This document shows positions 12,233 to 29,036 of a stretch of DNA of 47,008 nucleotides, piece after piece. Below the pieces are notes generated by a model. It saw only the letters and a program-made list of their open reading frames with translations, searched no databases and was not told the DNA's origin. A program made the position numbers and the translations under genes. Position 1 is the stretch's first letter, and each line of letters starts with the position of its first letter. Source of the DNA: Vicinamibacterales bacterium. Lineage in GTDB: Bacteria; Acidobacteriota; Vicinamibacteria; Vicinamibacterales; 2-12-FULL-66-21. The stretch is taken from contig DASSPH010000021.1 of the NCBI GenBank assembly GCA_035699745.1, positions 1-47,008 on the forward strand. The letters run 5' to 3'.

Positions 12233-12409
12233 GCTGCAGAACGGAGGGGACGGAGGGAACGGTTTTTTACAGAACGGAGCAACGGAGGCAACGGAGGTGA
12301 ACGGAGGCGAATTGGTTTTTTGGCAAAAACTACCAGCCTCCGTTCTCCTCCGTTGCCTCCGTTGCTCCGTTTTGTAAAAACCGTTCCCTCCGTAACCTCC
12401 GTTTGCCGC
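12233..12409. repeat. 177-base inverted repeat built of ACGGAGG units
   Basis: The arms 12233-12308 and 12336-12409 are reverse complements over about 73-76 bases with only about five mismatches and two one-base bulges; 12273-12297 and 12347-12371 match perfectly over 25 bases. The arms are themselves tandem ACGGAGG units separated by 2-3 bases. The 27-base centre also has facing T and A runs. No gene lies inside. It begins 11 bases after the TonB receptor stop and ends at the base before the putative -10 box of the ThuA gene. As RNA it would form an extremely stable hairpin, so it may act as a terminator, but it lacks the compact GC stem plus U-tract form. Confidence 0.85.
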
Positions 12410-20063: not shown

Positions 20064-20077
20064 CTGCTGTCCCGCTT

Positions 20078-20172
20078 AATCGAAGGAGTCGAAGGACGGC
20101 GAAGGAGCCGAAGGAGCCTCCCGCCGGCGTTCGAAGGAATCGAAGGTCGAAGGGCGAAGGAGTCGAAGGTTC
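20078..20172. repeat. CGAAGG array, left
   Basis: About nine CGAAGG units separated mostly by 3-4 bases (AGT, ACGG, AGC), giving a 9-10-base period, with a less regular centre near 20119-20130. It ends about three bases before the stop of the GxxExxY gene. The same unit appears in reverse orientation at 20689-20832. Confidence 0.85.
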
Positions 20173-20175
20173 GGG

Positions 20176-20577
20176 TTACTTCCTCGGGAAATCGGGATGG
20201 AAGATGCGCTTGATTCCGTGTCGGAGGACGGCGGCGTTGAAGTTCATCAGTAGCCCAACCATGATTCCGGAGAGACTCAGGTAGGTTCTTACCTGAGCGA
20301 AATGAATCGGCTCCAGGCTCGCGACCGACTTGATCTCGATCAGCAGTTTGTCCTCCACGACCAGGTCGATGATGTAGGCGCGGGGAACGACCTTGCCTTC
20401 GTACTCGACGTTCAGCGGCCGTTCGAAATCAACCTTGAGCCCTTCCTTCTCGAGCGCCCACAACATCGGCAGGTGATAGGCGTTCTCGAGGAGACCGCAA
20501 CCGAATTTCCGGTGCACCCCGATTCCCACGCCGATGACCTTTTCCGATAACCCGCCGGTTCCATCATCGATCAGCAT
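20176..20577 (-). CDS. GxxExxY family protein, PD-(D/E)XK nuclease-like
   Basis: A 133-residue protein, close to the roughly 125-130 residues of the GxxExxY family. The naming motif is G28-L-L-E31-N-A-Y34, preceded by VIGVGIGVHRKFG. The nuclease-like core is Asp71 in YIIDLVVED followed by E81-I-K83 (LLIEIKS), the D...ExK pattern of PD-(D/E)XK enzymes. The C-terminus, QVRTYLSLSGIMVGLLMNFN, is also typical. The family is widespread and multi-copy in many environmental bacteria, with unproven function; DNA or RNA cleavage is suggested by the fold only. It stands alone between two inverted CGAAGG/CCTTCG arrays. No Shine-Dalgarno site or -10 box is clear upstream. Base composition looks a little less GC-rich than the neighbours, judged by eye. 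Confidence 0.88.
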   Translation of the reverse strand: MLIDDGTGGLSEKVIGVGIGVHRKFGCGLLENAYHLPMLWALEKEGLKVDFERPLNVEYEGKVVPRAYIIDLVVEDKLLIEIKSVASLEPIHFAQVRTYLSLSGIMVGLLMNFNAAVLRHGIKRIFHPDFPRK

Positions 20578-20688
20578 GCCGATCGACGATGCAAGATCAG
20601 ATGCCTGCGGAATTGCGCCTGTTTTCGCAAGACGGCTACAGGGAATTCAAATTACTGCGATACCGCGACAGCGTCCAGATCGCAGAAA
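20578..20688. other. Gene-free stretch upstream of the GxxExxY gene
   Basis: It lies between the start of the GxxExxY gene and the right-hand array. Composition is visibly less GC-rich (for example GAATTCAAATTACTG near 20643). No open frame, clear promoter or hairpin was recognised. It would hold the promoter of the GxxExxY gene. Confidence 0.4.
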
Positions 20689-20832
20689 GCTCCTTCGCCC
20701 CCTTCGCCCGTCGACCGTTCCCCTTCGACGCTTCGCCCTTCGATTCTTCGCCCTTCGACCTTCGAACCTTCGACGACGAAGCCGCCGTTCCTTCGAGCTC
20801 CTTCGCCTCCTTCGCCTCCTTCGAAGCTTCGA
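20689..20832. repeat. CCTTCG array, right (inverted partner of 20078-20172)
   Basis: About sixteen CCTTCG-like units, with 9-base period at the end (CCTTCGCCT repeated near 20800-20819) and more degenerate units in the middle. Orientation is opposite to the left array, so transcripts across both could pair. It ends at the outer inverted repeat. Confidence 0.85.
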
Positions 20833-20961
20833 TTAAGAGGACAGGTCGTACTGCACCAGAGTGAGATCGACGCCGACGAGCAGTTGACCGGCGTAGATGA
20901 AGCCGGGGGTGTTGGCGAGTGTCCGGCCCCCGAACCGCAAGTCTTGCCGCACCTGACGCAT
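20833..20961 (-). pseudogene. Possible 3' remnant of an unidentified gene
   Basis: A 42-codon minus-strand frame from ATG 20961, open further back to about 21025 without a start, ends in TAA (20833-20835). The translation (FGGRTLANTPGFIYAG, then QLLVGVDLTLVQYDLSS) has coding-like codon use with G or C at most third positions. No upstream part survives before the efflux gene. The stop codon lies within the right terminal repeat of the candidate element. I do not recognise the protein. It may be chance; support is weak. Confidence 0.25.
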
Positions 20962-28264: not shown

Positions 28265-28271
28265 GCGGGGG

Positions 28272-28345
28272 GCGAGGTTCGAGGATCGAGGTTCGAGGAT
28301 CGAGGGTCGAGGGTCGAGGGTCGAGGGTCGAGGGTCGAGGTTCGG
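28272..28345. repeat. Heptamer array TCGAGGN upstream of udk
   Basis: Nine consecutive 7-base units of TCGAGGN (28279-28341), preceded by a degenerate one (GCGAGGT, 28272-28278). The array ends directly at the TAGAAT box of udk (28346). The same unit lies in inverted orientation downstream of udk (28988-29036); the two share a 16-base block, GGGGCGAGGTTCGAGG, as an inverted repeat. Confidence 0.9.
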
Positions 28346-28981: not shown

Positions 28982-28987
28982 CCCGCC

Positions 28988-29036
28988 CCTCGCCCCTCGC
29001 CGCTCGAACCTCGAACCTCGCCCCTCGCTACTCGGC
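28988..29036. repeat. Heptamer array CCTCGNN overlapping the permease stop codon
   Basis: Seven 7-base units: CCTCGCC, CCTCGCC, GCTCGAA, CCTCGAA, CCTCGCC, CCTCGCT, ACTCGGC. The TAG stop of the minus-strand permease (29028-29030) lies within units six and seven, so the array has replaced or grown into the last codons. It is the inverted partner of the array at 28272-28345. Confidence 0.88.

Follow-up and report, generated by a model that had tools for sequence, protein, structure and literature searches.

A GxxExxY nuclease gene between facing short-word arrays, probably part of a mobile palindromic DNA element

Among the described systems, the closest in design to the element studied here are REPINs and RAYTs. 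Excerpts of the relevant papers present REPINs as inverted doublets that fold into hairpins and whose spread is aided by RAYTs (PMC3116915, PMC3733652), HUH being the defining feature of the RAYT enzyme in the latter text (PMC3733652). Another system with a related layout is the 23S rRNA IVS, which according to an excerpt of one paper is excised from the RNA by RNase III (PMC4990558). The GxxExxY family, widespread, nuclease-like and often present in multiple copies (1 to 12 matches per genome in 20 genomes), has left few traces in the literature. Its name and PF13366 are scarce in open-licence PMC text, in which no link between GxxExxY and inverted arrays was found by title or abstract opening, and one excerpt mentions GxxExxY near a reverse transcriptase and gives no role (PMC8934634).

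The window, i.e., the whole stretch of 47,008 nucleotides analyzed in this study, holds a GxxExxY gene enclosed by two arrays. With REPIN/RAYT systems, the design shares short inverted intergenic hairpins of which several copies are gene-less, a nuclease-type gene inside or beside some of them, and repeats that flank the gene; the inverted palindromes typical of REPINs have their counterpart in 12 gene-less inverted copies in the window's own genome. The two designs differ in the enzyme, which is PD-(D/E)XK (Cas4-like) for GxxExxY and an HUH tyrosine transposase for RAYT, and in the arms, which are built from about 4 to 10 short words here but from one REP of 20–40 bp in a REPIN. Like the 23S rRNA IVS, the element is a small open reading frame within complementary arms, a few hundred base pairs long and sporadic. 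Unlike the IVS, it lies between protein genes and outside rRNA, had no Rfam match at gathering score (neither in the window nor anywhere in 12 sources), encodes a PF13366 protein unrelated to the S23/IVP four-helix protein (PF05635), and bears no RNA-level signature. Gene-bearing and gene-less copies with shared inverted ends also recall MITE/IS pairs, but the ends consist of repeated words. As the earlier note on this DNA had stated, neither a transposase nor a target duplication was apparent: a scan of one gene of the element, the 133-aa one among shorter or overlapping ORFs, gave no DDE or HUH match, and no target-site duplication was visible by eye at the window element or across the panel of Flavobacterium sites described below. 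The design thus resembles REPIN/RAYT, and the combination of enzyme and arms matched no described family that we found.

The earlier note had described an 11-base inverted repeat, matching outer ends, and inverted CGAAGG/CCTTCG arrays around one gene, and all of these proved correct, save for a one-base difference in length between the outer spacers. The sequence CTTAATCGAAG at 20075–20085 and its exact reverse complement CTTCGATTAAG at 20827–20837 have no third site in the window. Outside them stand CTGTC (20067–20071) and GACAG (20840–20844); the left outer end with its spacer (20067–20074) is common to other copies in the genome, and the right outer end with its spacer spans 20838–20844. 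The left arm (20075–20169, plus strand) is made of approximately 10 CGAAGG units directed inward, with the array proper at 20080–20169 and a unit spacing of about 9 in the outer and about 7 in the inner part. The right arm (20691–20837, minus strand), which aligns to the left one in inverse orientation, is made of CCTTCG units with the array at approximately 20691–20824. Between the arms lie the gene itself (20176–20577, minus strand) and a spacer from its start codon to the right arm (20578–20690), which may represent the gene's 5' leader. Comparison of the left arm with the reverse complement of the right arm gave a complementarity score of 46.5, whereas the median was 9 and the maximum 25 for 447 pairs of segments taken at the same spacing from the rest of the window.

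The encoded protein matched PF13366 (PDDEXK_3; E 1.3e-33, 116.2 bits, curated cut-off 22) and TIGR04256 (GxxExxY; E 4.3e-34, 117.4 bits, cut-off 35) and no further profile, which bears out its proposed identity as a GxxExxY nuclease-like protein. In an alignment of 25 sequences, the complete predicted PD-(D/E)XK residue set (E31, D71, E81, K83, and Q95) was invariant, and no invariant or near-invariant cysteine was present. The nearest fold to the AlphaFold model (mean pLDDT 94.8) was Cas4 SSO0001 (Foldseek E 8e-4; VIA Z 9.1, rmsd 3.7, 101 residues). LHK and lambda exonucleases had lower Foldseek ranks, and for the Hjc resolvase the Z was 6.5, structural Z values below 8 being not discriminating. 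A sequence search with E up to 1 returned no solved relatives. Q-x3-Y is a motif name in Cas4/RecB-like nucleases, and judged by the model, GxxExxY proteins appear to share with these enzymes the core fold and the motif order (D, ExK, then Q-x3-Y). The conserved cysteines of Cas4 hold an Fe-S cluster; GxxExxY proteins differ in their length of about 115–135 aa and in having no conserved Fe-S cysteines in the alignment. A role as a defense-system gene was also considered and rejected, as PADLOC gave no match for the window protein. Weak Cas4 matches were obtained with PADLOC for the locus L029 (E 1.9e-4 to 9.5e-3) and, once, for L232 (E 0.0025); PHROGs had no match for the window protein, L029, or L232.

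The genome of the window contains three PF13366 genes, the window copy included. All three sit between inverted repeats, as the proposal of one unit had led one to ask, with a different short word for each. The second gene (L009) is found between inverted AACGGAGG arrays, and the third (L010) within a 34-base inverted repeat with CACGAAG/CACAAAG/CACCAAG-like words. Gene-less inverted CGAAGG copies were read at 12 places on 12 other contigs (L002, L003, L004, and L193–L201), their ends being similar to those of the window copy, and two CGAAGG places (L006 and L202) had essentially one arm. When the end sequence of the window element was sought elsewhere in the genome, as had been suggested, a strict pattern (CCTTCGATTA, 2–7 bases, GACA) gave 10 matches on 6 contigs, the left end in the window included, compared to 0 matches for the same pattern read backwards. 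According to the earlier note, the occurrence of genes and arrays independently of each other would speak against one unit. Half of this was seen: arrays without a gene are common, as the 12 copies show, whereas genes without recognizable arrays look rare. The arrays without a gene are read here as gene-less derivatives of the gene-bearing element. Short-period arrays as such are common in this genome. Another AACGGAGG hairpin was present at L203, one of four 20-kb stretches picked regardless of arrays, and the window itself has a separate inverted AACGGAGG array (12239–12400) without a PF13366 gene, the word of which matches the arms of the L009 copy. Folding of four hairpins as single-strand DNA (one from this genome, three from other loci) gave z values of -5.0 to -12.9.

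For this genome and relatives of the same family and order, the left 500-bp flank of each gene was locally aligned with the reverse complement of the right flank. Loci were obtained from 31 of 44 listed GxxExxY matches, own genome included; one overlapping locus was left out, and 4 of 30 GxxExxY rows as well as 1 of 37 IVP rows were omitted because their flanks were too short. A score of at least 20 was reached by 19 of 26 GxxExxY loci (median 24), compared to none of 30 PIN-domain control genes of the relatives (median 11, highest 19.5). Among the 19, L022 owes its score to a long inverted repeat and not to a short-word array. Among the seven loci below 20, L020, L025, and L030 still have units, and L046 had no arrays by CRCNRAG count. 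Genes without recognizable arrays thus exist in the relatives (L046, L022), but they look rare.

The broad sample was collected by means of the peptide GPGLLES[AVI]Y and therefore represents one large subfamily; its 80 bacterial and archaeal loci are the best among at least 575. The 74 loci with enough flank span 16 phyla, among them Bacteroidota, Planctomycetota, Chloroflexota, Pseudomonadota, Cyanobacteriota, Spirochaetota, and the archaeal Methanobacteriota. Flank scores of at least 20 were found for 38 of these 74; among the controls, displaced places reached this value in 2 of 244 cases and cross-locus pairs in 11 of 582. Any of three automatic array criteria applied to 70 of the 80 loci (10/244 displaced controls), and at the remaining ten, units were visible by eye on at least one side. 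The link between gene and arrays is therefore close to obligate within the sampled subfamily. A chance palindrome or simple-repeat artifact was excluded, both by these counts and by the score of the window element relative to its control maximum. Orientation was counted at 77 loci, with 3 of the 80 left out: at least two CRCNRAG units on both sides and directed into the gene were present at 50 (1/125 controls), at least two on either side at 72, and two or more per side that point the other way at 11. At 31 of the 80 loci, one flank of the gene holds a complete hairpin, which was the sole qualifying criterion in ten. Of 8 matching records in the plasmid collection, six copies were viewed; in the one from Prevotella, the gene had no CRCNRAG units next to it, and the one from Treponema had only one inverted CACGGATTC-like pair.

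Presence and absence of the unit could be followed at orthologous sites. In Flavobacterium seoulense (L182) and Flavobacterium sp. ENC (L186), the element occupies the same intergenic site, between what we take to be map and a methyltransferase gene. A panel of 61 sites was assembled from L182 and 60 further genomes of its genus; as the sites were picked from BLAST rows to cover the different states, the following proportions are not frequencies. The element was absent at 22 sites, with approximately 0–30 bp between the genes and no arrays. A type-1 gene, encoding an LGPGLLES-like protein between CRCRRAG-like arms, was present at 22 sites; 16 of these copies are open with an ATG, two are open without an ATG (G120 and G156), and four are cut or broken (G071, G083, G131, and G149). 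At 13 sites a type-2 gene was found (LGKGHSE-like protein, CACRRATT-like arms), in two cases (G113 and G075) adjoining an apparent type-1 remnant. Only scraps were seen at four sites (G108, G128, G132, and G140). At two of them, G108 and G132 (L340 and L341), a type-1 left-arm remnant is followed by a different hairpin (CTGCAAGGTTTTC...). The whole unit is thus present or absent together at an orthologous intergenic site, be it through gain or through loss.

A comparable picture emerged at one intergenic site of another genus, that of G036 and its relatives. Gene-bearing units with different words were present in G036 and G040, gene-less hairpins of different words in G042, G026, and G043 (the last with an extra ORF), and a direct array in G045, while little was left in G046 and G041, both with unit fragments. 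Single sites of interest include Bacteroides finegoldii, in which a whole unit with matching ends lies between radA and the next gene, and Sphingomonas parapaucimobilis, in which a GxxExxY gene lies between fabD and fabG.

The repeat word was compared with the protein tree using 146 different proteins and their flanks, extracted by a pattern; proteins missed by the pattern (e.g., L009) are not counted. CRCNRAG is the core word in most sampled lineages and CRCNRAT in others. Accordingly, the word ending was classed for 128 of the 146 proteins (AG 109, AT 19), and the 18 without a clear word class were left out of the test. The window protein is one of these, because CGAAGG is not CRCNRAG; CGAAGG and the AACGGAGG word of its genome are related to CRCNRAG by resemblance only. 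On the protein tree, in which many forks are poorly resolved, word class changed 2 times compared to 18 in shuffles, with 0 of 500 shuffles as low. After reduction of the Flavobacterium site copies to two rows (99 rows, 6 AT), 3 changes were counted compared to 5.9, again with 0 of 500 as low. Word type is thus co-inherited with protein type, which is distinct from recognition of the word by the protein. Within Flavobacterium, 15 of 19 elements were parsed and four did not fit the pattern; arm complementarity of the 15 was 16.97 within and approximately 15.0 between species (p 0.010). In this genus, conservation is thus stronger for the word than for the arm pairing, as expected if a protein reads the word in DNA, or if arms that matched at birth have drifted since.

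The architecture is not restricted to the nuclease family. In the same genomes (L012–L019 in the window's own genome, L048–L076 in relatives), 26 of 36 genes for the PF05635 (IVP four-helix) protein had flank scores of at least 20, with L061 and L066 among them as long inverted repeats. Their arms are mostly heptamers, with a period of 7 or 14 in 18 of 23 measured cases; among the measurable GxxExxY arms (10 from relatives and 22 from the broad sample), a period of 7 occurred in none and a period of 14 in one. As an unrelated family is similarly enclosed, the nuclease is not needed for the architecture and mobilization could come from elsewhere. This points to a wider class of palindromic elements with a small ORF and makes the nuclease less convincing as the sole explanation of the architecture. 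At L016, in the window's own genome, an IVP gene is enclosed by very large inverted arrays whose word is longer (GAGCGAAGCGACTC); the score there was 188.

Taking these results together, we consider the window unit to be probably the gene-bearing form of a palindromic DNA element that is mobile, pairs a Cas4/RecB-like nuclease with its arrays and has gene-less derivatives in the manner of REPIN/RAYT. The part of this reading that had already been proposed, namely that gene and arrays form one mobile unit, is very likely, and it is supported by the association at 70 of 80 loci, by the presence or absence of the whole unit at an orthologous site, and by the word following protein type. That the nuclease acts on its own arms is marginally favored over the opposite. 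In the mechanism we envisage, two short-word arrays facing each other around the gene of a small, putatively Cas4/RecB-like PD-(D/E)XK nuclease would be bound by this protein as DNA, in the form of a single-strand hairpin or a cruciform. The nuclease would cut at or near the element ends, and host replication or repair would finish excision or copying. Gene-less hairpins might be mobilized in trans, and old copies would decay through deletion. No movement, excision product, or target duplication was seen in the analyzed sequences. This counts against the reading, as do the similarly enclosed PF05635 genes, the loci with one-sided hairpins or oppositely oriented units, the Prevotella and Treponema copies, and the small difference in arm complementarity within and between Flavobacterium species.

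In an RNA helix, G-U mismatches should be better tolerated than A-C mismatches, and this bears on the suggestion of the earlier note that the arrays may be recognized as folded RNA. If the element acted at the RNA level like the 23S rRNA IVS, its transcript would fold on the arms and be processed, and the protein would act on RNA; the arms around a small ORF do resemble an IVS, and IVS-type PF05635 genes have similar array flanks. On the coding strand, however, the arms differed by 69 G-U and 70 A-C mismatches at 45 broad loci and by 30 and 41, respectively, at 20 loci of relatives, in a comparison that 3 tRNAs were too few to calibrate; for the IVP family, the counts were 40 and 39 (30 loci). 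Since the two kinds are equally common, there is no sign of arms kept as an RNA stem. An RNA hairpin held by selection is therefore not supported, nor is the folded-RNA version of the proposal, and the Rfam search of the 12 sources was without a match. We regard an RNA-level element as improbable, and the functional form is likely to be DNA.

Two further explanations were considered. One is homing: the nuclease would open a break in a gene-less hairpin or an empty intergenic site, and repair of this break would copy in the gene-bearing unit. Homing would fit the alternation of gene-less hairpins and gene-bearing units at the site of the G036 genus, as well as the two type-2 units next to an apparent type-1 remnant. 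It is nevertheless unlikely, given that the empty Flavobacterium sites of approximately 0–30 bp have no common target word by eye and that the loci differ widely in their surroundings. The abundance of short-period arrays in the window's genome would agree with arrays that are ordinary host intergenic repeats or terminators in which the gene lands, and a repeated DNA word also fits the role of operators regulating the gene. Under such an interpretation it is hard to see why the empty Flavobacterium sites have no arrays, why two protein types with different words occur at one site, and why word type follows the protein tree; furthermore, one would not expect operators to form matching arrays on either side of the gene. 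Host repeats or operators are accordingly as improbable as an RNA-level element. Under the favored reading of a mobile palindromic DNA element, the same gene-plus-inverted-arrays design in many bacterial phyla and archaea is probably an overlooked mobile DNA family.

A bolder version can be put forward only tentatively and is more doubtful than not: that these are a new class of prokaryotic mobile DNA, self-contained hairpin elements found across bacterial phyla and archaea, with a lone Cas4/RecB-like PD-(D/E)XK mobilizer that recognizes its own word as a DNA hairpin, with coevolution of protein and word and with gene-less copies moved in trans. If true, the large orphan GxxExxY family would gain its job. 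The near-obligate link to facing arrays in the sampled subfamily offers a concrete candidate substrate for the GxxExxY family, could add an enzyme class to the movers of short palindromic elements, and would account for intergenic hairpins of the CACAGAG, CACGAAG, and CGCAGAG type.

Some further observations concern the repeats themselves. At L121, L142, L167, and L171, complete hairpins with approximately 4 units per arm are found beside rather than around the GxxExxY gene, and the two halves of the L171 hairpin are oriented the other way. In the L108–L186 set, TTNACC...GGTNAA was often seen by eye immediately beyond the first unit, which hints that these elements share an end or a target word. 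Finally, the window carries a GGGTCGA heptamer array at 28269–28344 and its approximate inverse at 28984–29034, which flank a gene that is presumably uridine-kinase-like.
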